Positions 21,890 through 42,366 of a stretch of DNA of 64,000 nucleotides are shown here, in pieces. The number at the start of each line of letters is the position of its first letter. Position 1 is the stretch's first letter. This DNA is from Deltaproteobacteria bacterium (GTDB taxonomy: Bacteria > Desulfobacterota > Deferrimicrobia > Deferrimicrobiales > Deferrimicrobiaceae): contig JAKAHC010000006.1 in NCBI GenBank assembly GCA_021815305.1, positions 62,001-126,000 on the forward strand, given 5' to 3'. A program made the translations under genes and the position numbers. Under the pieces are notes generated by a model. The model saw only the letters and a list, made by a program, of their open reading frames with translations. It made no database searches and had not been told where the DNA came from.

Positions 21890-22029
21890 CCGGAGAACTC
21901 CCTTCCCTGCGAAAGGCCACCGTGCGAAACCGTAACAGTCGGTACTATCGGCGATTCAGGAGGGAATCTTCAAGGATGATTCACTTGGAAATCCCCGGGG
22001 ATGGACGACCGACTAAGGTATCGGATGCC

Positions 22030-22165
22030 AATAAAGTTGTTACCGCAAGGTCGGGCAACTGATTGATTTTCCGTTGCGCCCGCTGGGGCCTATTCCCGTA
22101 TAGTTTTTACATTTCCCGCAAAGTCCATCAAAGTTCTTACATTCCGTGACAATAAAGTTCTTACA
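22030..22165 (+). repeat. array of four TnsB-type binding repeats; one end of the Tn7-like element
   Basis: Four 15-bp direct repeats read AATAAAGTTGTTACC (22030-22044), CGTATAGTTTTTACA (22097-22111), ATCAAAGTTCTTACA (22127-22141) and AATAAAGTTCTTACA (22151-22165). The last is preceded by GAC, giving GACAATAAAG, which is also the core of TnsB-binding sites in canonical Tn7 ends. In Tn7 such sites read from the terminus inward, so the terminus should lie just left of 22030 with the element extending rightwards. No clean 5'-TGT terminus is seen; the bases 18 before the first AAAG core read TATCGG. Confidence 0.72.
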
Positions 22166-24013: not shown

Positions 24014-25834
24014 CTACGATACGAGTTCTTCCACCAATTTCGCCAACGGGGGTGTGAGATTCTTTTCCCTCAAGCCCGTAAGTTTTAACAGGGCCCAAGA
24101 CTTCAGCGGCAGACCTCTCTCAGGTGCAATGACGGCGGCCCGCCTGAGACGTCTTGCCCGGAAGTCCTCGACAGACTCCTCTAACTCGCGCAGTGCAGCG
24201 GCGCACATTGGCAACCATTCCTTTTTTTTCCATGTGAGTCGGCTGAGTTTTGCATGTTTGATGATCCCCTCACGCGATGCTCGTTTGAGTGGGACGCTTT
24301 CACGGAGTTCTTTCGCGGCGGATCTTAGACTCTCGACTAGGCTCCGGTCTCTGGCCTCCCAATCTATACGGGACCGATTGCACGTCGCGCGGACGAACCG
24401 TCGAGACTCAGAAAATAGCCATTCCGAATCGTGTCGGCGAAGTCGATCGTAGAGTTTTGAATTAAGCGTTCGTGCCTTATCCCGGCTCCTGCCGGGCACT
24501 TGTTCCAGTAATGCATGCCATTCTTTACGCCAACCGAGAATTATCTCCTGGTCCACGTCGTTTCTACCTCTCTTGGTTCTCCCTTCTAAAAAATTATCGA
24601 TGGTTCCTTGAGATACACCCAACGCCTGGGATGCCGCACGCTTGGAAAGTCCAGATTCAATCAGATCCTTTGCTTTCTTCGCCCAGGTGGGACCGTAAAG
24701 CACCATCTTGTCGATGACAGGGGATTCTCCATTTATCGTTCTGAACGAAAAACGAAATCCGCAAGGACAACAAGCAGACGCGACGGGCCTCCCATCGCAA
24801 TCAGGTCTCACCCATATGGAGCGGATGGACTTTTCAGTGTCTTGATCACAATACGGATTCGGGCACTTCCATGGCGCATGGCCGAATGGATGGGAAAGCT
24901 TGCCATTCGCCGGCGTCTCTTCGAAAAACACTTGGAGGAGCGCGTGTTGAACGGGATGATGGTTTCTAGTGCGTGTCCGGAAGGTTTCTCTTAGCCAATT
25001 GGTGTCCACCCCCAGATAGACGTCGCATTCGATCGCGTTGAGAAATTCACGTCCGAAGAAGTCGACAAATGATTGTTCAAGTTTCCCCTGGTTAAGGATT
25101 TTGCAGTATGCGTGAAAACGTTCTCCTCTAAAACCAACATTCATTGCAGCCTCTCGGTACTGGCTTTTCCTGTCGTCGCAACTCCACCGGTTCTCCTTTC
25201 TTAGAAGGAAGTCCTCGCATCTTCGGGCAATCTTCCAGGCGTTGATCAAAAATCCATTCGACAACTCTAGCCGCGAACCATCCGGGTTATGCGTGGCTTC
25301 TGTCGCGTCGATGAAATCCCACAAACCAATCGGTCGATACGGAACGGCACTATTAGCCAGCATGCGCTTGTGATCTATACATACAAGAACCCCGGGTAGC
25401 TGGTGGGTTCGACGCCAATAGGTTTCACTCCATAGTTCGAAATCTTGCGAGACGCACTCTGGGCAATACCGTAGGAATTGGGGAATCCGAACACGGCTAC
25501 GGTTGATTCCCAGCCTCGAATGCAACCCCATCCCGCTGTCGGATACGAGTGCTTCCAGCGCTCTTGTCTTCACCGTTTCATTCGCAAAATACGTGTAATA
25601 AGGAAACAACGTATACCTCTCTGCGATTTCCTCCGCGGTCAATCCCCATAACGCCGCCGCATTCTCGGCAAAGTAGCCGAGTGAGGAGGGCAAGTCGACT
25701 TGAGCCCTGGAACCGCGTCTTCCAAATAGTTCTTCGACGCCAGCGCCCCTTGCCCCTCCGATGTGCGCGAAGTATCGCGCTATGATGCTGTAAAACAGTT
25801 CGTCCGGGTATGGCTTCGGCAGATAGCTCAGCAT
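24014..25834 (-). CDS. tnsD: TniQ/TnsD-family target-selection protein
   Basis: A protein of 606 residues. The N-terminal TniQ domain opens 'YLPKPYPDELFYSIIARYFAH', with residues 'GRRG' soon after. A zinc knuckle follows: 'YCPECVSQDF' then 'HQLPGVLVCIDH'. A second zinc-ribbon segment is 'WKCPNPYCDQD' with 'ACCPCGFRF'. An HTH-like segment 'SKRAASQALGVSQGTIDNFL' lies near residue 395. The size and two zinc modules are closer to TnsD than to short TniQ. TnsD proteins bind a fixed attachment site and recruit TnsC. It overlaps tnsC by seven bases and is last in the operon. The target site is not evident. Confidence 0.85.
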   Translation of the reverse strand: MLSYLPKPYPDELFYSIIARYFAHIGGARGAGVEELFGRRGSRAQVDLPSSLGYFAENAAALWGLTAEEIAERYTLFPYYTYFANETVKTRALEALVSDSGMGLHSRLGINRSRVRIPQFLRYCPECVSQDFELWSETYWRRTHQLPGVLVCIDHKRMLANSAVPYRPIGLWDFIDATEATHNPDGSRLELSNGFLINAWKIARRCEDFLLRKENRWSCDDRKSQYREAAMNVGFRGERFHAYCKILNQGKLEQSFVDFFGREFLNAIECDVYLGVDTNWLRETFRTRTRNHHPVQHALLQVFFEETPANGKLSHPFGHAPWKCPNPYCDQDTEKSIRSIWVRPDCDGRPVASACCPCGFRFSFRTINGESPVIDKMVLYGPTWAKKAKDLIESGLSKRAASQALGVSQGTIDNFLEGRTKRGRNDVDQEIILGWRKEWHALLEQVPGRSRDKARTLNSKLYDRLRRHDSEWLFSESRRFVRATCNRSRIDWEARDRSLVESLRSAAKELRESVPLKRASREGIIKHAKLSRLTWKKKEWLPMCAAALRELEESVEDFRARRLRRAAVIAPERGLPLKSWALLKLTGLREKNLTPPLAKLVEELVS

Positions 25835-27462
25835 GCGGCGGCTCCTCCACCAACACCGGCAATGATGCCGGCCTGGCGAAGCGCATCATGGCCGTTGCCG
25901 TTCTTTCCGTTTCCGTCCACGACCGCCTTCAAACGATTCGCAAGCGGCGGGACGGTCGCCTTGTCGGTTTTGGCGCCCCCGTTTCCACTTTTCGTCTTCG
26001 CGGTGGCCGCCCCGGCGACACCGGCCGATCGCAGTATGAAGCCAACGGCTTCGAGGCAAGTCTTCAGACCCTGTCGTTCGAAGGCGTCGTCCACCAGTTT
26101 CTTGGCCGCGCTTTCCTCCGTGCCCAAGTCGACGAGCGCCGATACCGCTCTCGTCTTTTCCGCTATGGCTTGCGTCTGCGATTCGGCCTTCGCCGCCTGA
26201 AGCAGGGCGAGTTGGGCATCCCTATCGACATCCTGACCCAGAGACTTCAGGCCGTTCGTAAGCAGGTCCTCGTATTTACTGATCTTTTTCTCGTCCTTGG
26301 AGCGGAGGGCGTCAAGCATGGGCGCAAGCAACCGGAACTTCTGCTTCGCCACCTTGCGGAGAAGCTCATCCGTGAGGGTTTCGGTCCCGGTACGGATAGC
26401 CTCGATCTGCGAAAGTTGGAACAGCCTCACCACCAGGGCGGTGACGCCCTGGGTTTCGTCGTAGAGAACGCTTTTCAGGACGGGGGAGAGTTCGACCGGC
26501 TTTTTCGTCCACTGATACTCCCACATACCCTCGACGAAGTGCTCCCACTCCTTCCCTTCACCGAAGGCATCCCAGATCGCGCCCCCCATGTCGCTGACGC
26601 GCCGCGCTTCGCGGAAGACCCCGTTCAATAGGGCAAGCCCCCGCGGCGTTCCGATCGTGACGTACGGGATCTTGACTTCGTTCGATAGCGTGACGAAAAA
26701 ATTGAGCATCTTCTCCTGGCCGACGCCGCTGGCAAGTAGCAGATTCTGGACTTCGTCCATAACGAGGAGACCGAGATGATGTGTAACGGCGACGCGGGCC
26801 ACATGTCCGATGAGTTCGTCGACGGTTTTAGCGCCCTTGAACGCCTGGCGCCATTTCGAGCCGAGAAGCTCGTCCACCTTGTCGAGGATCGCCAGTAGGA
26901 ATTGCTTGAGGCTTCCGTCCAAGGGACAGTCGATCTTGAGCCAGCAGATCTGGAAGAACCCGTGCTCCTTGTGGTACAGCACCTGCGGGGAAAAGGCGAG
27001 CGCCCGTTCGATTGCAGTGGATTTCCCGACTCCCGATACACCGAACAACGCAATGCTCGGGGCGGTGGAACGCCTGGTTGGCGAGATCGTAAGAATTTCA
27101 CCGCCCATGGCACGACGGTAGTACTCCTTCATCTTCTTGCTGTGTCCGGGATCCAGCGGGTTGCGGGAGGTGTATCCTGCCCGAATGAGAAGGCCGATCT
27201 GTTCGACGAGCCCGAAATGTTTAGGCAGGGGTTCGACGTACTCGTCGAGCCGTAAAACACATTGCATCCGGGTTTCCTTGGGTAGTTGGCGTTCCCCGGC
27301 GCTAATATGCGGATAACGTCCAAACGCCTTCATCACGTCCTTGGCCGCGCGGAACGGCGGCAGCGCCTCGATAAGCGGGTTGCCCGCATGCTCCGGCAGA
27401 TCGGCCGGTCGGTAGATCGCCTCCGGCCAGTTGATTGTCTCAACCACGGGCTTCGTGCTCAT
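25828..27462 (-). CDS. tnsC: TnsC-type AAA+ ATPase regulator of transposition
   Basis: A protein of 544 residues. Walker A is 'FGVSGVGKSTAIE' and Walker B 'LLVMDEVQNLL', followed by sensor-type 'YVTIGTPRG'. The N-terminal segment ('HFGLVEQIGLLIRAGYTSRNP') and long lysine- and alanine-rich C-terminal tail resemble Tn7 TnsC, which links the target protein to the TnsAB transposase. The ATG at 27462 follows GCAGGAGGAACCG. It overlaps tnsB by 23 bases and tniQ by seven, as expected for one coupled operon. Confidence 0.9.
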   Translation of the reverse strand: MSTKPVVETINWPEAIYRPADLPEHAGNPLIEALPPFRAAKDVMKAFGRYPHISAGERQLPKETRMQCVLRLDEYVEPLPKHFGLVEQIGLLIRAGYTSRNPLDPGHSKKMKEYYRRAMGGEILTISPTRRSTAPSIALFGVSGVGKSTAIERALAFSPQVLYHKEHGFFQICWLKIDCPLDGSLKQFLLAILDKVDELLGSKWRQAFKGAKTVDELIGHVARVAVTHHLGLLVMDEVQNLLLASGVGQEKMLNFFVTLSNEVKIPYVTIGTPRGLALLNGVFREARRVSDMGGAIWDAFGEGKEWEHFVEGMWEYQWTKKPVELSPVLKSVLYDETQGVTALVVRLFQLSQIEAIRTGTETLTDELLRKVAKQKFRLLAPMLDALRSKDEKKISKYEDLLTNGLKSLGQDVDRDAQLALLQAAKAESQTQAIAEKTRAVSALVDLGTEESAAKKLVDDAFERQGLKTCLEAVGFILRSAGVAGAATAKTKSGNGGAKTDKATVPPLANRLKAVVDGNGKNGNGHDALRQAGIIAGVGGGAAAC

Positions 27463-29644
27463 CGGTTCCTCCTGCGCGTTCGGCGCGGTTCGTTTTGAGG
27501 ATCTCCAGAGAGTCTGACTCCTCCTGGTCCTCGGGCAGCTCGTAGGGAGCGGTTGCTGGGTCGTTCGCCGGCGGACGTTTAGACTGTGTCTCGTCCATAA
27601 CGAATTTCTCGCTCTCCCGTTGTGCGACCTTCTCATCCGTACGGCTTTCGCGGATGCCCGAGGTTCGCTCGGCTTTGCTCCGGGTATCGGCGCCCAGGGC
27701 CTTCAGCTCTTTCTCAGCCTTCTGCTTGATATCCGCCATCTCGTGGTTACGCCCGATCCGCTTAGCCCGGCGACCGTCCGCTCCCGCGCCGATATTGACC
27801 TTGTTCTGTTCTCCAAGCTCTTCGACCTCGAAGATCGACTTGCCCTGGAATTCGACGCTCTGCTTAAGCAGGGTGCATTCTTCGTAACCCTTTAGGCATT
27901 CCTTGCTGTGCACGTCGCGCAGGTAGACCGTCCCCATATCGCGCGGGTCGAAGGATACATCCACCTTCCATTCCTTTCGGCGCGCCATGGCGAACCAGTC
28001 TTCACGCAACGCCGTCGGGGACGAGTAGTATCCTCCCTTGAAGAAAATTCCGTGGGATGTGATCTTGGCCTTCTCCATCGGCATTACGTTGAGCATCATT
28101 TCCTCGACGCTGATACGTTTGAGCGCTCCGCTGAGATGTCTGATCCCCCAGTTCCACAATTCGACCGGCGTCGGCTCCAAGCCCTCCACGATCATCCTGG
28201 CGGGCGGAACATATTTTTTTATCGGTTCGTTGTTGTGCTCGATCACGGCATGGACGACGAGCTGAGTGAACTCCGCGAGGTTCAGGGTCGCGTTGAGGCG
28301 GTAATCCGGCGCGCCGCGCTCCCCGGAATCGGCCTCCACGTAGCCCGGCGTGAACTGTTTGAATATGGCCGGAACGATCCCGAACCGGCGCTCCACGAGT
28401 GCCTTGAGGTCCGGCCGCCCGGGGCTTGCGTTCTCGATGTCGATCCTCAGTTTGTCGACTATGTTCTTCCCCAGCTCCACGCTTGCGAGCTCGCCTCTAT
28501 CGGCGAGTATCCGTTTCGGTGCTTCGTAAGACGGCCACTCCTCCTCGTCGATGTCCAGCCCGATCCGGCGGCAGAAATCGGCTTTCGACGTCACCATATT
28601 GACCAAGACCATCATGGCTCCGACCCAGGACGGTCCCTCGAATCCGACATAGACGCCGGTGATGAGGCGGCTGAAGACGTCGATCGCGAAGTAGATGACA
28701 GGCCGGCCGACGATGCGTCGACGGTCGAACTGGGAGACGAGGTAAACATCGGCCACGGTCGCGTCGACCTGGAATCGGTCGCCGGGTCCCTGGACGTCGC
28801 CGGTGTTCGTGCCGAGCAAGCTCCTTTCGTTTAGGTCCCAGTTTTTCTGGCCACCGCGACGGATTCTGCGACTCTGATACGATTCGTCGTTTTCCAGGAA
28901 ATGGCGGAACTGGCGTAGGGTGGGCCGCTCATTCTCCGGCACCTGGACGACAAATTTCTTGCCGTTGTCGTCGACAAGGCGGTGCGAGTAGTAGAGGTCG
29001 ATGATCTTGTCGTACGCCTTCTCCATAGAAACGTCCTTCCGGCGCAGATAAAAGTCCACCCCGGATTTCAGCTTCTTACGGACATCGTCGTTCACGCCCA
29101 TACCGGTTCCGGGGGTGATCCGGCGCTTACGTCCGGCCTTCGCCAGTCCCTCGAAATTACGCTCTTTCCCACGATGGCCGCACTTGTGGTAATCCGTCCC
29201 GAGCGCGGTGTAGGTCATCCCCCGCTTCCAGAACACCTTCAGGAGGGCGGAAAGCGTCTGGCGCGTCGTCTGGCAGTCCCCAAGCCGCTTCCTGATGAGC
29301 TGCGCCCGCACACGAGGGATGAATACCGCAGCCTCGTTCTCGCCCCGTACCAGAGGCTCGATAAGCCGGTACCGCTTCTCATGCCGCTTCGCGGCTTCCG
29401 TATCGGTCTCATGCATGCCTATGCGATTCGCCGCCCACTTGTCGTCGAGCTCGACGGCCAACTCTCCCCTCTCAAACCGTTCCTCCAGTACGGCGGTAGG
29501 GATCGGATATGGCCAGGAGTCGTCGCTGGTGTTGATGAGCCAGCAACGACCGCCGGACCTGTCGACGTGAAGCAGCCTGTCGATGGCGCCGTTCGCCGTG
29601 TCCCGGAGCAGCATCCTTTCCGCAAGCACTAGCTGGCTACGCAC
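27440..29644 (-). CDS. tnsB: TnsB-type DDE transposase (intact catalytic triad)
   Basis: A protein of 734 residues. The RNase H-like core has 'FQVDATVADVYLVS' (first D), 'RILADRGEL' (second D) and 'DLKALVERRFG' (E) with 35 residues between the last two, the classical DD(35)E. A Mu-type C-terminal beta domain follows, then a charged tail that in Tn7 contacts TnsC. TnsB binds the end repeats and joins 3' ends to target DNA. GC content matches its operon neighbours. It overlaps tnsA by eight bases. Confidence 0.93.
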   Translation of the reverse strand: MRSQLVLAERMLLRDTANGAIDRLLHVDRSGGRCWLINTSDDSWPYPIPTAVLEERFERGELAVELDDKWAANRIGMHETDTEAAKRHEKRYRLIEPLVRGENEAAVFIPRVRAQLIRKRLGDCQTTRQTLSALLKVFWKRGMTYTALGTDYHKCGHRGKERNFEGLAKAGRKRRITPGTGMGVNDDVRKKLKSGVDFYLRRKDVSMEKAYDKIIDLYYSHRLVDDNGKKFVVQVPENERPTLRQFRHFLENDESYQSRRIRRGGQKNWDLNERSLLGTNTGDVQGPGDRFQVDATVADVYLVSQFDRRRIVGRPVIYFAIDVFSRLITGVYVGFEGPSWVGAMMVLVNMVTSKADFCRRIGLDIDEEEWPSYEAPKRILADRGELASVELGKNIVDKLRIDIENASPGRPDLKALVERRFGIVPAIFKQFTPGYVEADSGERGAPDYRLNATLNLAEFTQLVVHAVIEHNNEPIKKYVPPARMIVEGLEPTPVELWNWGIRHLSGALKRISVEEMMLNVMPMEKAKITSHGIFFKGGYYSSPTALREDWFAMARRKEWKVDVSFDPRDMGTVYLRDVHSKECLKGYEECTLLKQSVEFQGKSIFEVEELGEQNKVNIGAGADGRRAKRIGRNHEMADIKQKAEKELKALGADTRSKAERTSGIRESRTDEKVAQRESEKFVMDETQSKRPPANDPATAPYELPEDQEESDSLEILKTNRAERAGGTDEHEARG

Positions 29645-30470
29645 GGGCGTTCCTCCCGAACATCGGATTCACGGCGAAGGATGAGGCCGGACGATCCTGG
29701 AGCTTGCCGGCCGAGAGATCTGCCGTCAGCACCTTCCGCGCTAACAGGTGGCGAAGGAACGTGAGACCGGTTCCGGGCGTGAGCCCTAATGCGGAATCGA
29801 ATTCTTGGCAGATGCACCACATCGGCGCGTTGGGCGCCCCAAGAATCGAGTCCACGAAGCGCGATGAGAGAGCGGCGGTATGAACCGGATCTCCCAGGCA
29901 ACTTTCGTCGAAGCACGGGAAGATCCATTCGAGGTTCCGACCGACGGGAGTTTTGACCTCTTTTTCCGTGACGAGCCTCCACTCGACGCCGCGCTCTTCC
30001 AGATAGATGCGCTCGATCTCCAGCTTTTCGAGGACACGGCCGTTGTCGAGTTCGGATGCCTGCTTGACGGCGCTGGCCTTCAGCGTCTGTAGACTTCCTG
30101 TATATAAGGTAAGCAGGAAGTCCGTGGTCATGACGATGGGTACCCGGGAATGCGGGTCCACCGGGTGCTTGACGCCGAGAGAATCCGCGATCCGGCCGGT
30201 GCCCTCGCGATCGAGGAGGGGGAATTGCTCGCGGATGTCGACCACGGTGTCGTCCCACCAGAAGTGCAGGAAAGCGAAATACTCGGTGTCCGACAGGAAG
30301 TGGTGCACACGCGTGGTCTTCGGGCAATAAACCCTGTGCACCCGGCCGAGTGACGGCACGTCGTTCGTGCGCAGCCACGGCTTGTACCCTGCCCCTTGCC
30401 CCTGGCCGCGCCCTTCCTTGAGGTACGTCCGGATACGGGCCTCCGTTATGCCGTATTTTTTCCGTGCCAT
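29637..30470 (-). CDS. tnsA: TnsA endonuclease
   Basis: A protein of 277 residues with the TnsA N-terminal restriction-endonuclease-like fold: 'HHFLSDTEYFAFL' (E), 'VVDIREQFPLLD', 'PIVMTTDFLLT' (D) and 'ASAVKQASEL' (the Q/K region). The C-terminal winged-helix-like part follows. TnsA cuts the 5' ends so that the element leaves its donor completely; its presence predicts cut-and-paste rather than replicative movement. The gene starts four bases after the TniB-like gene. Confidence 0.88.
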   Translation of the reverse strand: MARKKYGITEARIRTYLKEGRGQGQGAGYKPWLRTNDVPSLGRVHRVYCPKTTRVHHFLSDTEYFAFLHFWWDDTVVDIREQFPLLDREGTGRIADSLGVKHPVDPHSRVPIVMTTDFLLTLYTGSLQTLKASAVKQASELDNGRVLEKLEIERIYLEERGVEWRLVTEKEVKTPVGRNLEWIFPCFDESCLGDPVHTAALSSRFVDSILGAPNAPMWCICQEFDSALGLTPGTGLTFLRHLLARKVLTADLSAGKLQDRPASSFAVNPMFGRNARA

Positions 30471-30474
30471 GACC

Positions 30475-31527
30475 CTACTCGGCGGTCCGAACCACGTCGA
30501 TGAATTCGACGCCCAAGTTACTGTATCTGTCTCTTTTCGGACGAATGCGGACGCCCGCAGCAGTTGTCATCTTAAAGATCGGCTGCATTGTACGCAGACC
30601 TTCGGCCAGCTCTTGCACATCGGTCCGGAATGAATGCTGGCGCCCGCTTCCCATTCGCGCTTTCTCCGCCACCCCCCAGCGTTCTTCGTACACATTGGTC
30701 AGATGGTCCAGGGTGATTTTTTCCGCACCTTCCTGGAGGGCGAGAATCGCCGCCTTTCGGACAAGTACCATCACGTCTCCGACAACACCTTTTGTGGCGT
30801 GGTGGATCCGTAGCGCCGTCCCCCGGGAAGATAAGCCTGAGCGGGAATCGAGGGGCAGCATTTCGTCCAGAAAACCCAGGAACGTCCGGAACTCGTTTTC
30901 CTGCTCCTCCGGTCCCCAGCCGAACGGCTCCAAGATCATCCGCGAGAATCGCCTCGCGAACTGGTCGTTTGCATGGAGGATGTCGTCGGACTCTGGTGTC
31001 CCCATGGCGACCATGGGTACGCCTGTGTGAACCACGAGGCTTTTCAGCCAGTCGACGGCAATCTGGGCCTGGCGCCGGTCTATGCGGTAAACGTGTTGGA
31101 TCTCGTCCAAGATGATCATCTCGACGCCACGGTCCGCAAGCGACTCAAAAAGCCTGTACGTCTGGTTGTCGATGGACCCTTGGGAGGGATTCGGTACGCC
31201 GAGGTCGTAAAGGAGGCGTGTGGCGATGCTCTTCACGCCCGGGATAGCCGGGACGACCGAGGTAAGGACGCGGATCACGGTCCCTCGTTCTGTCACCCGC
31301 CTCGGGAATTTCGCCACATAAGAAGTGGCAACGGTCGTTTTCCCCGCCCCGGTCGGCGCTGTCAGGAACAGGCACTGGGGTTCCACAGAGCGTCGGAACG
31401 ATTTGTGACACTCGGAGAACCTCGTCAAGATTTTTTTTAGCTGAGGATGGAGTATGAATATCTTCTCGGCCACCTTGATCCGTTCATCGATAGACATCTT
31501 TGAGAAGCGGTTTCCGTTCGCGCTCAT
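30475..31527 (-). CDS. tniB: TniB-like AAA+ ATPase (second transposition ATPase)
   Basis: A protein of 350 residues. Walker A 'LTAPTGAGKTTVA', Walker B 'MIILDEIQHVYRIDR' and sensor 1 'VPMVAMGTPES' are intact. The architecture matches TniB of Tn5053/Tn402-type elements rather than TnsC, being shorter with no long tail. Its ATG overlaps the stop of the TniA-like gene by one base (TAATG). Having a second regulator ATPase in the same operon as tnsC is unusual; it probably partners the TniA-like protein upstream. Confidence 0.87.
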   Translation of the reverse strand: MSANGNRFSKMSIDERIKVAEKIFILHPQLKKILTRFSECHKSFRRSVEPQCLFLTAPTGAGKTTVATSYVAKFPRRVTERGTVIRVLTSVVPAIPGVKSIATRLLYDLGVPNPSQGSIDNQTYRLFESLADRGVEMIILDEIQHVYRIDRRQAQIAVDWLKSLVVHTGVPMVAMGTPESDDILHANDQFARRFSRMILEPFGWGPEEQENEFRTFLGFLDEMLPLDSRSGLSSRGTALRIHHATKGVVGDVMVLVRKAAILALQEGAEKITLDHLTNVYEERWGVAEKARMGSGRQHSFRTDVQELAEGLRTMQPIFKMTTAAGVRIRPKRDRYSNLGVEFIDVVRTAE

Positions 31528-33398
31528 TATTTCCCCTCCTTTCGGGATAAGCAGTTGTTGGTTTCCAATGCGCTCGACTTTAGAACGTCTTCGTCTTTCA
31601 ACTCAGTTCTCGTGTGGCTGCGCGTACCTGCGGTAACGGAGCTTGAGACAACACGCTTTGGTACCCTACGGCGCTTCTCCAACATCGCGCCTTGACCAAC
31701 CTCCGCATGGTTCAGGTATCGGACCAGCACCTGCCTGTACGCATTCCTTTTCGCCTGTGCCTGCCCGCGCGTGACGATCTCCACGATTCTTCGCTTAGCC
31801 CGGACCAGGTGCACAGCGCTGGCCTTTTCAAAGGCCTGACGCCGGGCAGATTCCATGACGACCCTGTGCTGCGATAGCGTTAGTCCCCGCGTGTACGCCC
31901 GGTTGACCGCTGGGACCGTGATGACAGTGCCTTTCGCCGCGTCGAAGACATGAATAAGCGACAAGTCAGTTGGGTCGAATTTGACCCTGACCCTCTCGCC
32001 CTTTCTCATTCCGCGCCAAAGGGGCGCAAGCCCCCCACTGTTGTAAAAAAGTCCGTGGAGTTTGATGCCCGAGCGGGAGATGACGCGCTCCTCTGTCACT
32101 TGAAGGAGGATTTCAAGTTCCTCAGGTCTCGGCGGCAGGGCAGGTGGGTGTGCTTCGATGCCCCGCTTCCAGACAATTGCGGGGATCTGCTTCGTCTCCG
32201 GATGCAGCCGCTGGTTGTAGTGGTCGACGATGTAGATGTGCAGGAGTTCGTCGATAGTGCGCATGTCGATGACGGTGCGCTTTTCCGCATGGTCGTCAGC
32301 GTTCTCGGGATGGTCGGAGAACGTCGTCCCCAACTGCAGGTGGGGTAACAACTCGTTGAAATTACGGAACTGCCGCTCGACAGCGCCCTTCCAGTAAACC
32401 CGCCGGACGGGAGCATACTCGATGAGGATGCCCAACCGGTTACAAGCATCTTCGAAATGCTTGCTGTGGAACTCCCTCCCGTTTGCAACAACGACCGCTT
32501 CCGGAAGACCATGGGCGTCCCAACTACGCACAACGCTCAGGTATCGGACTTTTACGCCCGACTTGGGCGCGATAGCGTGGAAGAGGCATCGCATTACGGC
32601 GAGATAACTGGGCGGTTCCAAGCTCAGGTAGATCCCCAAGCAGCACCCGGAGTAGAGATCGATGGCGATGGAGAGCCATGGCCGCCCGAGCGGCATCCCC
32701 ATCTTTGAGTCAACTACCAATACGTCGAGCTGGGTGTGGCCGATCTCCACACGCTCCAGAGGTCGCGTAGGGGTCAGCCTCAGCTTGGCGACCTTCGCCC
32801 GCGGGACCGCGGTCCCTTTTCGGTTGCGGGCCGCCAGCCATTTGCGTTTGTTAAGCCTACGTACTTCACGGCGGACGCTGTAATAACTTGGAGGTATCAA
32901 CTCGTCGTCGGGGGACCTGAACCTATTTGCCTCGTGAATCCTTAATATAATGGATATCCACGCGGTCCTTATACTTGTCCTCCGGGGAGACAGGTACTGC
33001 TCTACAACGATGTCCCCGATGATTTTGAGGACTTCGGGATGGATTCGCCGGTGCCAGTTCCCCCTGTTGCGAACGAGAGGAATTAAGCTTCGTATATTTC
33101 CACCAGATGCCACGAACCTCCGGTACCAGCGACAGAGGGTCTTTCGGGAAGGCGGGTTGACGTCGCCTATGGCTAGCGCGACTTCCTTTGTTAACCGCCG
33201 AAGCCCTTTGAACTTTCTTCCGGAGTCGATCCGCTGTCGAATCGCATCTATGTACTTGTATCGACGCTGAACCTCCGGTCGACATTCCTCCGGTACCTCC
33301 GTGAATTCTGAAGGAAGGCGCTTGTCCCCTTGATGGGATGGTTCCTCCAAGTTGGTTTCGGGAAATGCGAGCGACAGTTGTTGGTCGGCTCTTGTCAT
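31527..33398 (-). CDS. tniA: TniA/Mu-type transposase with substituted catalytic aspartates
   Basis: A protein of 623 residues from the ATG at 33398, chosen for AAGGAGGAAAGGAAG; an ATG at 33512 is an alternative, with AGGAGG 14 bases away. An N-terminal HTH region, an rve-type core, and a Mu C-terminal domain ('SRSGIKLHGLFYNSGGLAPL', 'VRVKFDPTDLSLIHVFD') are all present. Where relatives have 'EIDHT' this has 'VEIGHTQLD' (Gly220, GGC at 32739-32741). Where they have 'DNGKEF' this has 'VVANGREF' (Ala305, GCA at 32484-32486). Glu341 ('KGAVERQF') is kept, 35 residues after Ala305. The frame is intact yet the enzyme should not cut or join DNA. It leads the tniB-tnsABC-tniQ operon. Confidence 0.85.
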   Translation of the reverse strand: MTRADQQLSLAFPETNLEEPSHQGDKRLPSEFTEVPEECRPEVQRRYKYIDAIRQRIDSGRKFKGLRRLTKEVALAIGDVNPPSRKTLCRWYRRFVASGGNIRSLIPLVRNRGNWHRRIHPEVLKIIGDIVVEQYLSPRRTSIRTAWISIILRIHEANRFRSPDDELIPPSYYSVRREVRRLNKRKWLAARNRKGTAVPRAKVAKLRLTPTRPLERVEIGHTQLDVLVVDSKMGMPLGRPWLSIAIDLYSGCCLGIYLSLEPPSYLAVMRCLFHAIAPKSGVKVRYLSVVRSWDAHGLPEAVVVANGREFHSKHFEDACNRLGILIEYAPVRRVYWKGAVERQFRNFNELLPHLQLGTTFSDHPENADDHAEKRTVIDMRTIDELLHIYIVDHYNQRLHPETKQIPAIVWKRGIEAHPPALPPRPEELEILLQVTEERVISRSGIKLHGLFYNSGGLAPLWRGMRKGERVRVKFDPTDLSLIHVFDAAKGTVITVPAVNRAYTRGLTLSQHRVVMESARRQAFEKASAVHLVRAKRRIVEIVTRGQAQAKRNAYRQVLVRYLNHAEVGQGAMLEKRRRVPKRVVSSSVTAGTRSHTRTELKDEDVLKSSALETNNCLSRKEGK

Positions 33399-33530: not shown

Positions 33531-33601
33531 CTTATTCGGGCCATGCCCGATGATGGAGTCAGTGTAGTGTATGACTATATCTAAAGTCAAGCAAATAATA
33601 G
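33531..33601 (-). promoter_or_regulatory. promoter P1 of the transposition operon with repressor box (repeat copy 1)
   Basis: A ~70-bp block almost repeated at 33724-33792. On the minus strand it contains the box CTATTATTTGCTTGACTTTA (33582-33601), which includes a -35 TTGACT, then an 18-base spacer and TACACT as -10. A TCGGGC/GCCCGA hairpin-like dyad follows. It points into the tniA operon. The sequence upstream of the -35 is conserved in three places near the repressor gene, as expected for an operator. Confidence 0.65.
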
Positions 33602-33723: not shown

Positions 33724-33792
33724 CCTTTCGGGCCATGCCCGATGACGGAGTCAGTATAGGTTATAACGCATCTTAGGTCAAGTCAATAATAG
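33724..33792 (-). promoter_or_regulatory. promoter P2 with repressor box (repeat copy 2)
   Basis: Second copy of the block. The box CTATTATTGACTTGACCTAA (33773-33792, minus strand) contains TTGACC, a 17-base spacer and TATACT, a near-consensus sigma-70 promoter. The TCGGGC dyad and a following AATGCAG are also duplicated, so the leader and the first codons of an upstream start were probably copied in tandem. It also reads toward the transposition operon. Confidence 0.65.
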
Positions 33793-33879: not shown

Positions 33880-34626
33880 CTAAAGACCTCTAAACACCCA
33901 AACGACTCGACCGATGACCGACGAGGGGTGGGCTCGCAGGTCGACGAAAATTGGATCCTCCCCCCCATGTTTAAGGTCGTGGAGGGCGATCATGCTTTCA
34001 TTTACCTCCAGACGGCATAGGCGCACCGCGTCCTCAAGCCGGACCGCATAGACGCTTTCCGCAATCACCGGCATTTGGGGTTGTGGCCGGTCGCTCCGGT
34101 CGATGCATATGGTATCCCCGATGTAAAAATGCGGTTTCATCGAATCATCTTCGATAAGGACACATATGGTATCGTTATCCTCCTTCTCGGTAGATGCTTT
34201 CGGGAGGAAGAGCTTCATCGCCCACGCCTGGGATTCCGTTATGAGCCCGGAGAGAAGGGTAGTCTCCCTGCGTGCAAGATCGAAGTCGTTTGAGTTCTGT
34301 GACCGCAATGATGGATGATCGTCCTCTTTTCTCCTGAGGTCCCTCAGAAAGACTCTTTTCAACACAACGCTTTCCGTTACAGGGCCATCCTGAGCGGGGA
34401 TCGTCCGGTAAAATTCGCCTGGTTCCACTCCAAGAGCAGTGGAGAGTTTTCGTAGCGTCTGAGGCCCCACGCCGGTCCTGCCACATTCGATCTGGCTCAC
34501 CATTGCTTGGTACCGCCACCCCACCTCCTCCTTCAACTTTTTCTGGGACCACCCTTTCGCCTTTCGGAGGCGTTGAATGTTCCAAGCAACAGTTCTCATC
34601 ATTTCGGGATCCCGATTTTTCCCCAT
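33880..34626 (-). CDS. XRE-family repressor with S24/LexA-type C-terminal domain
   Basis: A protein of 248 residues. The N-terminal Cro/CI HTH is 'IQRLRKAKGWSQKKLKEEVG' followed by 'YQAMVSQIECGRTGVGPQTL'. The C-terminal peptidase S24-like domain has 'IEDDSMKPHFYIGDTI' with the usual Ser. At the place where LexA-type proteins have the catalytic Lys (V-K-R-L) it reads 'RLCRL', so self-cleavage may be lost. It should repress the transposition operon and itself: three matching boxes overlap promoters at 33582, 33773 and 34708. Confidence 0.85.
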   Translation of the reverse strand: MGKNRDPEMMRTVAWNIQRLRKAKGWSQKKLKEEVGWRYQAMVSQIECGRTGVGPQTLRKLSTALGVEPGEFYRTIPAQDGPVTESVVLKRVFLRDLRRKEDDHPSLRSQNSNDFDLARRETTLLSGLITESQAWAMKLFLPKASTEKEDNDTICVLIEDDSMKPHFYIGDTICIDRSDRPQPQMPVIAESVYAVRLEDAVRLCRLEVNESMIALHDLKHGGEDPIFVDLRAHPSSVIGRVVWVFRGL

Positions 34627-35692: not shown

Positions 35693-35737
35693 AAGAGAGT
35701 TTCCGCCTACACCTTCCTCATCTTCCCCACAACTGAC

Positions 35738-35801
35738 CTTGCCAACATTTGCGCGATCTTTTGACATATTATGCGCACGATTTGTCAGGTTATGTGCGAC
35801 C
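35738..35801. repeat. three tandem ~21-bp imperfect repeats (iteron-like)
   Basis: Units at 35738-35758, 35760-35780 and 35781-35801 share the pattern TTTGaCAtaTTATGcGC. On the minus strand they read as (T)GCGCATAATATGTCAAA-type units. A 21-bp period equals two DNA turns, as in binding arrays for recombinases, transposases or replication initiators. TGTCA/TGACA cores recall Tn5053/TniA-type transposon ends. They sit 33 bases before the 163-bp repeat. The bound protein is unknown. Confidence 0.55.
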
Positions 35802-35834
35802 CGACAACAGGTCTCGGGTTGCATAATTCCTTGC

Positions 35835-35997
35835 TGTTAACCGACCTGCAAGTTTGACCCGGATCGGCGTCCAACCTTGACCCATAGTGAAGCCGGGAAA
35901 TTATTATAGGCAACAGATGATTACGGTCCGAAAGGGTGGGTCAGAGTTGGACGCTGATAACGCCCATAAGCGGGTCATTTTTCAAAGCCGATCTACA
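35835..35997. repeat. 163-bp TG...CA repeat, copy 1 (left flank of the metal-resistance block)
   Basis: Starts TGTTAACC and ends GATCTACA. It matches 49547-49708 at about 90 % by eye, in the same orientation. Inside, TGACCC/GGGTCA motifs recur in opposite orientations (TTTGACCC, CTTGACCC, then GGGTCAGA, GGGTCATT), so the unit is loosely palindromic, like fused IS21-type ends or a MITE. No matching flanking duplication was seen. The two copies bracket 13.5 kb of metal-resistance genes. Confidence 0.75.
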
Positions 35998-36101: not shown

Positions 36102-37163
36102 TTACAACAGCGCGTTGAACAGGTACCCCACGATCAGGATCCCCAAGCCCACGATCCCCGCGAACGTGGCGATCAGCCGGACCTTGAGCACCTTTCGCAG
36201 GATGATCATCTCGGGCAGGGATAACCCGATGACGGCCATCATGAAGGCCAGCACGGTCCCGAGCGCCGCCCCTTTGCCGAGCAGCGCCTGGACGATGGGG
36301 ATGATCCCGGCCGCGTTCGAATACATCGGGATACCGATCAGGACCGCCAGGGGAACGGACCACCAGGCGCCCGCGCCCATGATCCCGGCCATGAAATTCT
36401 CCGGGACATACCCGTGGATGCCGGCACCGACGGCGATCCCGACCAGGACGTAGGGCCATACCTTGCCTACGATGTCCCGAACGGCTTCGAGCCCGTATCG
36501 GACCCGGTCCCGCCAGGTGAGGCGCTGGTCGTCCCCGACGCTGTCCGCACCCCCAATCGCCTCATAGACCCACCCTTCCACGTACCGCTCCATCCCGAGA
36601 CGCCCGATCACCCAGCCGGATACCATCGCGATCACGAGCCCCGTCACGAGGTAGATCGCGGCGATCTTCCACCCGAACAGGCCGTACAGGAGCACAAGCG
36701 CGACCTCGTTGACCATCGGAGCCGAGACGAGGAAGGAGAACGTCACGCCGAGAGGAACGCCGGAGGTGACGAATCCGATGAAGAGAGGCACTGCGGAGCA
36801 GGAGCAGAAAGGCGTCACGATGCCGAGCAACGCGGCGAGCACGTTCCCCGCCGACTCCCGGTTACCGGCGAGGATTCGGCGAGCCCGCTCCGCCGTGAAG
36901 AACGAGCGGAGGACCCCGACGCCGAAGACCACGAGGGTCAGCAGGAGAATGACCTTCGGACCGTCATAGATGAAGAACTCGACGGCCGCCCCGACCCTCG
37001 AAACGGGGTCCAATGAAAGGACGGAATATGTGACCCACTTCGCGAACGGCAGCAGGTTGCGGTAGAGCAGCCACCAGAACAGAAGGAGAAGCCCGCCGGG
37101 CAGCAGGTATCCAAGCGCGAACGAACGATCATTCGGCGAGGAAATGTCGCGGGAAGTCGTCAC
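36102..37163 (-). CDS. UPF0718/DUF318 permease (ArsP-like, copy 2)
   Basis: A protein of 353 residues and a close paralogue of 17185-18318. The cores 'GIVTPFCSCSAVPLFIGF', 'SAPMVNEVALVLLYGLFG' and the final ~110 residues are almost the same, but the N-terminus differs and lacks the Cys/Gly-rich leader. About eight membrane helices. It is the last gene of the ars operon, ten bases after the universal-stress gene, which supports a role in metal(loid) export. Confidence 0.85.
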   Translation of the reverse strand: MTTSRDISSPNDRSFALGYLLPGGLLLLFWWLLYRNLLPFAKWVTYSVLSLDPVSRVGAAVEFFIYDGPKVILLLTLVVFGVGVLRSFFTAERARRILAGNRESAGNVLAALLGIVTPFCSCSAVPLFIGFVTSGVPLGVTFSFLVSAPMVNEVALVLLYGLFGWKIAAIYLVTGLVIAMVSGWVIGRLGMERYVEGWVYEAIGGADSVGDDQRLTWRDRVRYGLEAVRDIVGKVWPYVLVGIAVGAGIHGYVPENFMAGIMGAGAWWSVPLAVLIGIPMYSNAAGIIPIVQALLGKGAALGTVLAFMMAVIGLSLPEMIILRKVLKVRLIATFAGIVGLGILIVGYLFNALL

Positions 37164-37173
37164 GATGTCCTCC

Positions 37174-38052
37174 TTAAGGATGCCCCGGCACTACGAGTAC
37201 AGGGACCGTGGACCGATGGACCACGTGGTTCGCCACCCGCCCGAGGAACGCCTCTGCCATATACCCCCGCCCCTGGCTGCCGATGACGACCATGCTGTGC
37301 CCACCCTTTCGGATCTTCTCCACGATCAGTGGGCCTGGCCGGCCGAACTCCACCTCCTTGCGCACAATGCTTCTCCCCCACTCCACGAGCCGCTTTTCGA
37401 GTCCATCCAACCTCTCCATGTCGATCCGGTTGAATTCATCCAGACGATGGACGAGATGAGGGTGGATTCGTGCCTGGTCCTGCACGTGGAAAAGGGTCAC
37501 CTCCTGCGGGCGGGCGTGCGCCACGATGTGCTCCAGGTAATGGAAGGCCCGCTCGGCGGATCCGGAAAAATCGGTGGCGAACAGGGGGTGGCGGAAGAAG
37601 TCGCCGGAGAGCACGTCGCACTTCTTCTCCCCGCCCTCTTCTTCGAGGATGGTGATCGGGAGAAGCAGGACCGGCTTCTCCGCCAGTTGCAGCAGGCGAT
37701 GGACCACACTCCCCAGGAGAATGTCCTTCACGAGAGATTCTCCGTGCGTTCCGGTCACGATCAGGGAAATGTCCGCCTTCTTGGCGAACTGGTTAATTTC
37801 GTACGCGGGATCCCCCATGGGGATTTCCAGGCGCGTCCGGAACCCCATCTCCATGAGTCGTTTTTCTTTATCCTTGAGGAGCGGTTCGATGAAGCTTTTC
37901 ATCGAGAGGTACAGTCCCCCCACATCCCGGATGTTCATCACGTGAATGAGGGTTACGCTTTCCGCCCCCGCCCCCCGAAGAGGACCCATGCAGCGCAGGA
38001 GTGCAATCGATGCTGGGGACAGGTCCATGGCGATCAACAGGTTCTTGAACAT
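37174..38052 (-). CDS. universal stress protein (tandem UspA domains)
   Basis: A protein of 292 residues with two UspA domains. The first ('LLIAMDLSPASIALL', then 'IVTGTHGES..DILLGSVVHRLL') and the second ('PLFATDFSGSAERAF', 'VVIGSQGRGYMAEAFLGRVA', quoted in parts) each end in an ATP-binding-type G-rich loop. The ATG at 38052 follows GGGAGGCTGAG. Usp proteins are often co-transcribed with ACR3 in arsenic operons and may help cope with the stress. Confidence 0.88.
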   Translation of the reverse strand: MFKNLLIAMDLSPASIALLRCMGPLRGAGAESVTLIHVMNIRDVGGLYLSMKSFIEPLLKDKEKRLMEMGFRTRLEIPMGDPAYEINQFAKKADISLIVTGTHGESLVKDILLGSVVHRLLQLAEKPVLLLPITILEEEGGEKKCDVLSGDFFRHPLFATDFSGSAERAFHYLEHIVAHARPQEVTLFHVQDQARIHPHLVHRLDEFNRIDMERLDGLEKRLVEWGRSIVRKEVEFGRPGPLIVEKIRKGGHSMVVIGSQGRGYMAEAFLGRVANHVVHRSTVPVLVVPGHP

Positions 38053-38077
38053 CTCAGCCTCCCTTTCCGGAGCGGGA

Positions 38078-39168
<1,091 letters not shown>

Positions 39169-39172
<4 letters not shown>

Positions 39173-39396
39173 CCGCAGCAGCCCCCGCCCTTGCGCCCCA
39201 TCATCATCCCCATCACGGAGATCATGTTCGCCATCGGCTCGCCGCAATCCTCCGTCATCAGGGAAAACATCTCCCGGATCCGCTTCGGGTCGCCCATCAT
39301 GCCCTCGCAGAACTCCGGCATGATCTGCCGAAGCACGGCCATCTGGTCTTCCTTCGAAAGCGCCTTGAACTGCGTCGTGAACTCCTTCGCCTTCAT
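39169..39396 (-). CDS. small Met/Cys-rich protein in the ars operon
   Basis: A 75-residue protein I do not recognise by function. It is helical, with a methionine-rich tract 'MISVMGMMMGRKGGGCCG' that ends in a vicinal Cys pair. Both ends overlap neighbours by four bases (ArsA stop, ACR3 start), so expression is coupled. The terminal CC could bind As(III) or Cu(I) and pass it to the pump; this is inference. Confidence 0.75.
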
Positions 39397-41273
39397 TTCG
39401 CCCCTCCTTCGATTCCCGCCGCCGTCTCCAGAACGGCGAGTGCGATGTTTTCCATCCCGAGCAACTCCCTGCCCACCCGGTCCAAGGCATCCTTGCCCGC
39501 GGGCTCCGACGGCAGCATGGGAACCTTGAAGATCGGCAACCGGAACGTCTCCTCCGCCACCTTGAGATAGTGCTGCTGCATGAAGTACCGCGACATGGAG
39601 AAGGGGGACGTACAGTCGTCCTCTTCGAGAATAAAATTAGCGATGACGCCCTGCACCTCGATGCCGGATTCCTTCAGGTCTTCGGCCGCCCGTTTCGCCT
39701 CGAAGATCGGGGTGTACTCCGGGTAGATCACGAGGAGGAAGGTCGTCGCCCGGGGATCCTTCAGACGCCGGACGAGCGCGTCGAGCTTCCCCTTGGCGCC
39801 GGTCGCACCGGCGTCGTCCTTCCGGACGGCCACCATCATCTCGACCTGCCGTGCGTAGTCGTACGGCAGCTCAAGAAGCCGCAAGGTATGTCCCGTGGGG
39901 GCGGTGTCGAGGACCACAATGTCGAAATCGTTCCGCTCCACCAGGCCGGAGAACTCCTCGAAGACCGCCATCTCTTCCGTGCAGGGGGATTCCAGCTCCT
40001 CCTTTACAACGGCAAGCATCTCGCCGGTGTGGCCGGACGCGGCCGCCTGGGAGAGGATCTTCGCCTTGTACGCCTCGACACTCTCCTTCTGATCGATGCG
40101 GACGGCGAACAGCCCGGGGTAGCCCGGGACGGGACGCGCATCACTTGACACATCCGCCGAAAGGACCGACCCGATGTGGGCCGCCGGGTCGGTGGTCGCC
40201 AGAAGGATCCGCTTCCCCTCCCGCGCCAGGCGCGCCGCCAGGGCGCACGCCGCGACGGTTTTCCCGACCCCTCCCTTGCCGGTCAGGACGACCGTCTTGC
40301 TTCCGGTCGCGCCTGTCACCATCATCCGCAGTTCGTGCGCAGGAGAAAATCCTGTGTAAGGGCGGGTGCCCGTGAACCCGCCGTGGAGGAAATCGTTCTT
40401 CCCGTCGAATGCGATGGCGGCGAACCGCCCCAGAGCGGAAAGGCCCTTCACTTCCCCCCCCTGAAGGGGCACCTCGATGCAAGGTCGGTCAATCTTCCCG
40501 GAAAGACGGCGGACCTGCTCCCGCTGGGACGATGCCTGGGTGGCGAACCGCCCCCCCGCCCCGGCCGGGATCACCCCGTTCGCGACGATCCGGAAGTTGC
40601 CGATCCCGAGCGTACGGAGTTCTTCCCGGGCCCGGAGCAGCTCGTCCACGGAGGTCCGTTCCGGACGGCAGACCAGCGTGAACTCCGTCTCCCTGGGGTT
40701 CCGGAGCGCGGCGATGGCGTGGTCGTATTTCGCCTTGGCCCCCTGCAGGGAGGCGACCGGACCGATGCAAGTCTGGCCATTGCCCTGCGCGGCCTCCTCG
40801 ATATGGCGGGACCAATCCACCGGGAGCTCAAGCAGTCGGAGCGTGTGGCCCGTGGGCGCGGTGTCGAAGACGACGTGGTCGAATTCCGTGTCATTGAGAA
40901 AATCGGTAAACCGATCGAACGAGGCTATCTCGACCGTGCAGGCACTTCGGAACTGTTCTTCGAGAACCTTCATGGCGTCGGGAGGAAGGACGGCGCGCAA
41001 GGGTGCCAGCGCGCGCTCCCCGTACTCTTTCGTGGCGGTATCCGGATCGATTTCGAGCGCGAACAGGTTCGGCGCGATCTCGGTGACCCGGGGGCCGATG
41101 GGGCGTTCGAAGACGTCAGCCAGGTTGCTGGCCGGGTCCGTGGAGACGATCAGGGTCCGTTTTCCCGCCTGCGCCGTGCGCACGGCCGTGGCCGCCGCAA
41201 GAGTGGTTTTACCCACCCCTCCCTTGCCGGAAAAGAACGTGTATTTGTGCATCAGTCCAGGTATCCCCTTCAT
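39393..41273 (-). CDS. arsA: arsenite-transporting ATPase ArsA (two fused nucleotide-binding halves)
   Basis: A protein of 626 residues, the length of the duplicated ArsA. Each half has a deviant Walker A: 'FFSGKGGVGKTTLA' near residue 14 and 'VLTGKGGVGKTVAACA' near 325. Each also has the signal-transduction motif 'DTAPTGHTLRLLELP'. ArsA drives the membrane transporter using ATP. The ATG at 41273 follows GGAGGAATAA; an internal ATG at 41252 is possible. It lies between the zinc-ribbon gene and the small Met-rich gene. Confidence 0.93.
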   Translation of the reverse strand: MKGIPGLMHKYTFFSGKGGVGKTTLAAATAVRTAQAGKRTLIVSTDPASNLADVFERPIGPRVTEIAPNLFALEIDPDTATKEYGERALAPLRAVLPPDAMKVLEEQFRSACTVEIASFDRFTDFLNDTEFDHVVFDTAPTGHTLRLLELPVDWSRHIEEAAQGNGQTCIGPVASLQGAKAKYDHAIAALRNPRETEFTLVCRPERTSVDELLRAREELRTLGIGNFRIVANGVIPAGAGGRFATQASSQREQVRRLSGKIDRPCIEVPLQGGEVKGLSALGRFAAIAFDGKNDFLHGGFTGTRPYTGFSPAHELRMMVTGATGSKTVVLTGKGGVGKTVAACALAARLAREGKRILLATTDPAAHIGSVLSADVSSDARPVPGYPGLFAVRIDQKESVEAYKAKILSQAAASGHTGEMLAVVKEELESPCTEEMAVFEEFSGLVERNDFDIVVLDTAPTGHTLRLLELPYDYARQVEMMVAVRKDDAGATGAKGKLDALVRRLKDPRATTFLLVIYPEYTPIFEAKRAAEDLKESGIEVQGVIANFILEEDDCTSPFSMSRYFMQQHYLKVAEETFRLPIFKVPMLPSEPAGKDALDRVGRELLGMENIALAVLETAAGIEGGAK

Positions 41274-41335
41274 CGATTGGCGTTATTCCTCCACCTGACT
41301 TCTCACCCGCAGCGACCGCCGCGGCCAGGGGGGCA

Positions 41336-41521
41336 TCACCCACCCGGGGCGGGCGCTCCACCTCCACCCCCGCCCCCGACGGAGAAGCCGAACAGTTGTT
41401 GCTCCACCTTCGCGCTTCCACAAACCGGACAGCGGGGCTTCCACGTGTCTTTCTCCCGGATGGACATCCGGATCTCGAACGGACGGCCGCAGGCGCGGCA
41501 CAGGTACGCATAGGTCGGCAT
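41336..41521 (-). CDS. FmdB-family zinc-ribbon protein
   Basis: A 61-residue protein: 'MPTYAYLCRACGRPFEI' and 'RCPVCGSAKVEQQLFGFS' are the two CxxC knuckles of the FmdB/CxxC_CXXC_SSSS family. A Gly/Pro-rich tail follows. The family is thought to be regulatory or to bind metal, with no proven reaction. It is placed directly against arsD (one base apart) in the arsenic operon, which is a frequent arrangement. Confidence 0.82.
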   Translation of the reverse strand: MPTYAYLCRACGRPFEIRMSIREKDTWKPRCPVCGSAKVEQQLFGFSVGGGGGGGAPAPGG

Positions 41522-41821
41522 CTACATCCCCTCCCGGGTGACCTGGTCATATGTCGGGTATTTCCCCTTGCAGACGACCTTCCCGTCGAGCAGAGCGACC
41601 GGGAGGACCTCCTGCCCTTCCCGAGTCAGCAGGTCGACCACCACCGGATTCGACATGAATCGTTGCGGGACCTGATTGATCGCGAGCCGCTCGACGACGA
41701 CCCCCACTTTCTTCCAGCGGAGGATGTCCTCCTGAAGTTTCGCGAGAGCGGGATCGGGCGCGGGACCGCAGACCCCTGTCGGGCAACACAGCGGCGGCTC
41801 GTAAATTTCCAGCCTCCTCAC
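41522..41821 (-). CDS. arsD: ArsD arsenite metallochaperone
   Basis: A 99-residue protein starting at a GTG (41821) behind a strong AAGGAGGAACGAA; the longer ATG at 41851 would bury this ribosome site. 'EPPLCCPTGVCGP' carries the Cys12-Cys13-Cys18 set that binds As(III), and a thioredoxin-like fold follows. ArsD hands arsenite to ArsA and can act as a weak repressor. First gene of the minus-strand ars operon. Confidence 0.92.
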   Translation of the reverse strand: MRRLEIYEPPLCCPTGVCGPAPDPALAKLQEDILRWKKVGVVVERLAINQVPQRFMSNPVVVDLLTREGQEVLPVALLDGKVVCKGKYPTYDQVTREGM

Positions 41822-41893
41822 TTCGTTCCTCCTTGTTCCCGAATCCCACAAACGGGTAGGATGGTGACCATGGATATTATTTGCCCGAAGCGG

Positions 41894-41920
41894 TATAATG
41901 TCAATTCGTTAGTTGTCGAA
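41894..41920 (+). promoter_or_regulatory. arsR promoter -10 and candidate ArsR dyad in the divergent ars intergenic region
   Basis: TATAAT at 41894-41899 is a perfect -10 for the plus-strand arsR. It is followed at once by TGTCAATTCGTTAGTTGTCG, a region with TGTCaA/TTgtCG half-sites. The spot lies between divergent arsD (41821) and arsR (41935), where one ArsR dimer could control both directions. No good -35 was identified. Confidence 0.5.
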
Positions 41921-41934
41921 ATGGAGGAAGTCAC

Positions 41935-42366
41935 ATGAGCATGCGCGTATACGAAACCGCCATGAAGGCCGTCGCCGACCCGACCCGGGTCCGAATCCTC
42001 AAGATCCTGGAGGGAGGAGAGTTGTGCGTCTGCCAGATCATCGCGGTCATCGCCTTGGGCCAATCCACGATCTCGAAGCACCTATTCCTCCTTCGGGCCG
42101 CAGGGTTGATCAAGGACCGCCGGGATAAGAAGTGGATCCACTACTCCCTCGACGGAAAAAGCGAAAACCCTTACGTCGCCACGCTTCTCCGGAATATCCG
42201 GAAATGGCTGAACGACGATCCGCTCATTCTGAAGGATCGGGAAAGGGCCGCCATGGCGAGGGATATCGGGCCGGTCGTGATCTGCGAACGTGGCATGGCC
42301 CTACCCGGCCGTAAGACTGTACGGTGCCGCCCCTCGTCCGGCAAAGAAGCAACCGCCGTCCGTTAA
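41935..42366 (+). CDS. arsR: ArsR family arsenic-responsive repressor (copy 2)
   Basis: A 143-residue winged-helix protein: 'AVADPTRVRILKILEGGE', 'LCVCQIIAVIALGQSTISKHLFL' (quoted in part: CVCQIIAVIALGQ). The CVC pair in the DNA-recognition helix region forms the As(III) site. It is closely similar to 18576-19007, including the 'VICERGMALP' tail. ATGGAGGAAGTCAC precedes the start. It is divergent from arsD-arsA-ACR3 and followed by the ArsC fusion, so it should control both. Confidence 0.93.
   Translation: MSMRVYETAMKAVADPTRVRILKILEGGELCVCQIIAVIALGQSTISKHLFLLRAAGLIKDRRDKKWIHYSLDGKSENPYVATLLRNIRKWLNDDPLILKDRERAAMARDIGPVVICERGMALPGRKTVRCRPSSGKEATAVR

Follow-up and report, generated by a model that had tools for sequence, protein, structure and literature searches.

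The locus and the resident element

The locus described here, contained in a window of 64,000 nucleotides from a Deltaproteobacteria bacterium, falls in a Tn7-like transposon of 46,338 bp, referred to below as the resident element. In its operon, two further genes, tniA2 and tniB2, stand ahead of the resident tnsA.

22014..22018, left copy of the 5-bp target-site duplication TAAGG (right copy beyond the window, contig C13 130357-130361)
22019..22164, plus strand, left-hand end of the resident transposon, with the terminus TATCGGATGCC and four sites of the CAATAAAGTTCTTAC type
24014..25834, minus strand, resident tnsD (TniQ and TnsD domains)
25828..27462, minus strand, resident tnsC
27440..29644, minus strand, resident tnsB of canonical Tn7 type, D-D-E intact
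29637..30470, minus strand, resident tnsA
30475..31527, minus strand, tniB2 (tnsC2), an AAA+ ATPase
31527..33398, minus strand, tniA2 (tnsB2*), a TnsB-type DDE transposase, dead by sequence

The resident TnsA, TnsB, TnsC and TnsD frames are unbroken, and TnsD likely selects the glmS target. The termini of the element, TATCGGATGCCAATAAAGTTNTTAC, are bordered by the repeat TAAGG, and the repeats TGTAAGAACTTTATTG (CAATAAAGTTCTTACA in the other direction) mark its inverted ends, at window 22029-22165 and on contig C13 at 130291-130346, and occur nowhere else in the genome. Outside the window, the right end is found 25 bp past the glmS stop, which agrees with the insertion of Tn7 some 20 bp past glmS (PMC2918618). 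Every feature by which such an element is recognised was found, namely TnsABCD, inverted ends with site arrays, a 5-bp duplication and insertion past the glmS stop. The order TnsABCD, a TnsD domain, a 5-bp duplication and a position 25 bp past glmS are common to it and E. coli Tn7, as is the pattern of its sites, which cluster at the end nearer glmS and are spaced out at the opposite end. It differs from E. coli Tn7 in that the right end is not adjacent to tnsA, which is preceded by a foreign tnsB-tnsC pair, and that no TnsE was found in the operon. A right end just upstream of tniA2, assumed in a first search for terminal repeats, was discarded, as only a promoter duplication lies there and the true ends were recognised through the CAATAAAGTTCTTAC arrays. 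No Cas genes were detected among the window proteins scanned, which represent part of the element's ORFs.

The nearest related core lies in genome G087, with identities of 47-50% for TnsA, TnsB and TnsC and of 31% for TnsD. It begins with tnsA, as do six other TnsABC elements, and none of the seven inspected carries tniA2-tniB2 at this place. Furthermore, no second tniA2-tniB2-tnsABC operon was present in the genomes of the same phylum or the GTDB contigs searched, and peptide patterns retrieved no close TniA2 orthologue from genome or viral contigs. An apparent tandem with a second dead TnsB in Methylorubrum (L056) was rejected: the upstream match is not a TnsB frame, and a TnsA-like protein is encoded there.

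A TnsB-type protein devoid of its catalytic aspartates

The tniA2 frame comprises 623 codons without any break, and an in-frame extension upstream reaches a longer start, ATG 33512, backed by a ribosome-binding site of its own (AAGGAGG). Three codons define its catalytic condition.

32739..32741, minus strand, codon 220, GGC (Gly) where relatives have their first catalytic Asp
32484..32486, minus strand, codon 305, GCA (Ala) where relatives have their second catalytic Asp
32376..32378, minus strand, codon 341, GAG, the retained catalytic Glu

Some 85 homologues from related loci were aligned with TniA2. Asp occupies both the first and the second catalytic positions wherever a row has letters (two rows are truncated ahead of the first), Glu occupies the third in all of them, and the Gly and Ala of TniA2 are found in none. 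The best PDB match is PseTnsAB of a type I-F CAST (E 2.8e-71), whose two aspartates align with G220 and A305; Tn6677 TnsB and ShCAST TnsB are further solved relatives. Codons, alignment and structural match concur with the first-pass annotation, which had read a DD(35)E protein with both aspartates replaced and E341 kept, residues 305 and 341 being separated by 35 residues. Its remark that GCA is not one step away from Asp also holds, two base changes being required from either Asp codon. Within the alignment, no other acidic residue takes their place: D225 and D230 fall outside the conserved EIDHT motif.

The protein matches Mu-transpos_C and, below the curated cut-off, rve. An AlphaFold model built on 29 sequences gives about 90 pLDDT for most of the RNase H domain, and the mapping of this fold that had been called for returns a predicted structure resembling solved TnsB and MuA, in which the RNase H fold is intact as modelled. 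Two DNA-binding domains, the RNase H fold and the Mu-C barrel of the TnsB/TniA family are all present, and the triad reads G220, A305 and E341 where the family has D-D-E. By its sequence, TniA2 is catalytically dead, a TnsB/TniA member by descent and not an active transposase. No second transposase copy of its type is present in the same genome, and the resident TnsB keeps all three catalytic residues, a point that the initial annotation had not covered.

Nor had that annotation recorded that both extremities of TniA2 are missing. The N-terminal domain with which its relatives begin (about 90 aa, GLHxxxxGREYxI...) is absent, and where close relatives have a short terminal motif with Trp (for example GWDVSIGLP), TniA2 terminates in LKSSALETNNCLSRKEGK; neither was found to survive in another frame. 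In ShCAST TnsB, TnsC is bound by a C-terminal hook of 15 residues, without which transposition no longer occurs (PMC9371665). By analogy, the Trp tail of the close relatives would be the counterpart of this hook, in which case TniA2 lacks the TnsC hook of its family. This weakens the proposal, made at first reading, that TniA2 offers TniB a docking site.

The operon junction and its promoters

The stop codon of tniA2 overlaps the start of tniB2 (TAATG), with a strong Shine-Dalgarno sequence, AAAGGAGGGG, ahead; the undamaged frame and its coupling to tniB2 are as first annotated. TniB2 retains the Walker residues K63 and D141-E142, and is altered at 6 of 23 family-invariant residues. Its gene ends 4 bp from the resident tnsA, whose own Shine-Dalgarno sequence is weak. 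Upstream of tniA2 lie the following features.

33535..33601, minus strand, promoter-like TTGACT-18-TACACT with the palindrome TCGGGCATGGCCCGA, reading into tniA2
33727..33792, minus strand, second copy of promoter and palindrome TCGGGCATGGCCCGA, 192 bp upstream of the first
33880..34626, minus strand, HTH/peptidase S24 repressor gene

The repressor would act on the palindrome TCGGGCATGGCCCGA. The upstream copy of the promoter-operator block runs into a short ATGCAG frame with a stop within a few codons. Between the tniA2 leader and tnsA, a consensus scan of that strand, from which unusual promoters escape, gave no promoter-like site reading towards tnsA.

A second transposon family with ends beside gyrB

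TniA2 does not belong with the transposase that it precedes. It is closest to the TnsB of cyanobacterial and acidobacterial TnsA-TnsB-TnsC-TniQ elements (38-44%, the nearest homologue being 44% identical) and to CAST I-F TnsB, whereas the resident TnsB is closest to that of E. coli Tn7, and the two are only 26% identical to each other. In the relatives of tniA2 the gene order is tnsA-tnsB-tnsC-tniQ, and the ends of four of them consist of TGT followed by CATAAnnTGAAA sites about 21 bp apart. An end of this kind remains upstream of tniA2.

35737..35806, minus strand, end A of the tniA2-type transposon: TGTCGGGTCGCACATAACCTGACAA and then two weaker sites, interior towards tniA2

Its terminus, TGTCGGG, is located at 35806, 2.3 kb upstream of tniA2. 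A site matrix built from the relatives' sites has its best match in 84 kb, on both strands, precisely in this end (at 35780), with a score that none of 20 shuffles reaches, and the full end pattern is matched at end A with zero matches in 100 shuffles; the second and third sites are degenerate. Across the 131 kb of contig C13 that were examined, and at the beginning of C1, no end facing it was detected, and tblastn found neither tnsA2 nor tniQ2 nearby. Of a complete second transposon, which would have two facing ends, tnsA and tniQ, one end alone is thus present here. Just outside end A, four repeats of 19-22 bp (GGGTCA...), in both orientations, occupy window 35842-35993 and are perhaps ends of an insertion sequence.

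The sole other end of this type in the genome, end B (contig C13 155759-155830), carries three perfect sites and lies 11 bp past gyrB. Both ends look cognate to TniA2, which would be their putative ligand judging from the sites. In five proteobacterial relatives with transposase genes of their own (L029, L033, L039, L040 and L041), an end of the tniA2 family likewise lies 9-14 bp past gyrB, and in L040 the facing end is found at 20005, about 17 kb away. The 3' end of gyrB is therefore probably the attachment site of the tniA2-type family. Solo arrays of the same end type also stand directly behind gyrB in further species of the family to which the window belongs (L112, L129, L126 and L127), two of them much like end B; a TniA2-type TnsB was not found in these genomes at E 1e-10, although they are drafts in which mobile elements are easily missed. 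In other species, gyrA directly follows gyrB. Among the papers listed in a literature search, none joined Tn7-like elements and gyrB, and the presence of tniA2-type ends beside this gene in several phyla points to it as an attachment site. Altogether, tniA2-tniB2 is a foreign remnant of a second Tn7-family transposon.

Decay or selection

If the eight losses of invariant residues in TniA2 are all taken as drift, a neutral model implies about 163 substitutions and 5 stops; none is seen, with a probability of no stop of 0.01 for tniA2 and 0.0025 for tniA2 and tniB2 together. It rises to 0.11 when just the four clearest radical losses are counted. These values omit indels, the inclusion of which would reduce them further. 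A neutral frame is, on these grounds, unlikely.

Apart from the two aspartates, 7 of 44 near-invariant sites are changed in TniA2, against 4.3 +/- 1.7 expected from its branch length; the true count of such losses is 5-7, since G193R may reflect an alignment shift and P592T falls in a disordered tail. The TniA2 and TniB2 branches are each about twice as long as those of their sisters. Where the catalytic domain is most conserved, radical losses concern two of the three catalytic residues only. Constraint outside the two aspartates is thus about normal for the branch length, as in a protein still under selection. The lack of stops, together with non-catalytic losses near expectation, implies that either the frame is selected or its death is very recent. 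Nevertheless, selection on the frame need not be selection on the protein, since tniA2-tniB2 is the translated leader of tnsABCD, and the frame may be retained merely because tnsA-tnsD are read through it.

A proposed capture at the head of an operon

The explanation that we place highest, giving it about an even chance, is that tniA2-tniB2 persists at the head of the resident operon as its leader, translated yet unable to move, with residual, non-cutting DNA binding. The pair would be the surviving core of a gyrB-homing Tn7-family transposon once located upstream of the resident tnsA, and a deletion would have fused the two elements. The foreign family, end A upstream and the ends beside gyrB together lead us to this capture and fusion of a second core as a leader 4 bp from tnsA. 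The tniA2 promoter, probably controlled by the repressor, would now drive tnsABCD, and tnsA, dependent on read-through, would be translated with the aid of tniB2. Devoid of a partner and of a pair of ends to move, the captured TnsB would have lost both catalytic aspartates, the N-terminal domain and the tail, while its frame would be retained chiefly for its part as translated leader of a still functional operon. Any leftover activity would be to bind DNA, without cutting it, at the ends that were once its own (A, and B next to gyrB). In favor of this proposal are the family mismatch between TniA2 and the resident TnsB, the persistence of end A while tnsA2, tniQ2 and a facing end are absent nearby, the 4-bp junction, the coupled stop and start, the lack of an intervening promoter-like site and a frame that does not behave as neutral. 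It is drawn from one genome, and the non-catalytic constraint, close to that of a selected protein, speaks against it, as selection on a leader only would let the fold drift.

That same constraint would be accounted for by a repurposed end-binding protein, which we consider possible but second in rank. Here, the dead TnsB2 would bind the sites of its family and, with TnsC2, repress transcription or block related elements, for instance at the gyrB site, leaving ends A and B uncut. The DNA-binding domains and RNase H fold predicted as intact, the retained Walker residues of TniB2, the three perfect sites of end B in the same genome and the confinement of radical losses at the most conserved catalytic-domain sites to two catalytic residues are consistent with such a role, for which the catalytically inactive TnsF, in which a Tn7-like element has put a dead recombinase to new use, provides a precedent (PMC10293859). 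However, the N-terminal domain is gone, as is the tail matching the TnsC hook needed for ShCAST transposition (PMC9371665), the second and third sites of end A are degenerate and no conserved second example was found. A more particular version, in which TnsB2 and TnsC2 would occupy end B from within the resident transposon and bar rival gyrB-homing transposons from that site or from cutting ends A and B, appears improbable. The first annotation had proposed a dead transposase kept for another task. This stands in that the protein is dead by sequence, folded by prediction and poorly explained by neutral decay; evidence of a conserved second task did not emerge, and the search for the Gly and Ala changes in similar operons, which it had suggested, gave neither a second operon nor a homologue with them.

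Plain recent decay, in which an orphan tniA2 would have gathered point mutations and, as yet, no stop or frameshift, comes third and is rather unlikely. It would fit the absence nearby of partner genes and a second end, the greater departure of both tniA2 and tniB2 from family invariants than in close relatives, and the more lenient of the neutral estimates, obtained from the four clearest losses. If all losses are drift, the low probabilities given above for the gene and for the pair argue against it, and three base changes have accumulated in two catalytic codons while about 970 codons show no damage to the frame. As to a structural role, inactive TniA2 protomers might join the resident TnsB in a tetramer, given that two of the four protomers are structural in the ShTnsB strand-transfer complex (PMC9527255); but the mere 26% identity, the quite different binding sites of the two families and the fact that the resident's relatives manage without TniA2 make this very improbable.

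Relation to known systems and cargo

TniA2 is homologous to PseTnsAB of CAST I-F and to the cyanobacterial and acidobacterial TnsB over the two DNA-binding domains, the RNase H domain and the Mu-C barrel, and its end sites are arrays of the CATAAnnTGA type found in those families' elements. Unlike these proteins, it is without both aspartates, the N-terminal domain and the Trp tail, and tnsA, tniQ and the second end are missing. Faure et al. (PMC10293859) marked Tn7-like loci with additional tnsC-tnsB genes nearby and described TnsF, an inactive tyrosine recombinase that has taken on targeting. TnsF of Tn6022 and TniA2 are both inactive derivatives of recombinase-type enzymes carried by a Tn7-like element; the former derives from a tyrosine recombinase and has a shown targeting role, whereas the latter is a DDE protein for which, from its sequence, a role is only a candidate. 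Mobile elements nested in Tn7-like transposons were reported by Benler et al. (PMC8649781), and the present case is similar, except that the nested element itself belongs to the Tn7 family and its core forms the 5' part of the host element's operon. No description of a catalytically dead TnsB inside the operon of another Tn7-like element was found in the open-licence literature searched. The locus constitutes a concrete case of one Tn7-family transposon whose operon is headed by the core of another, the cutting activity of the passenger having been removed, and makes it testable whether Tn7-like elements can convert a rival's transposase into a regulator or an immunity protein.

Among the cargo of the Tn7-like element, translations read by eye revealed an arsenic-resistance-like set (window 36102-46823) with a permease, an ArsA-like ATPase, an ArsR-like regulator and a reductase-like protein. 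Two related permease genes have the same orientation, one outside the transposon (17185-18918) and one inside (36102-37163). Finally, a stretch of defence cargo (window 49979-63486) encodes a ThsB-type TIR protein, a DISARM-like methyltransferase, DrmB and DrmA, as well as a protein that matches only the C-terminal two thirds of Dsr1.
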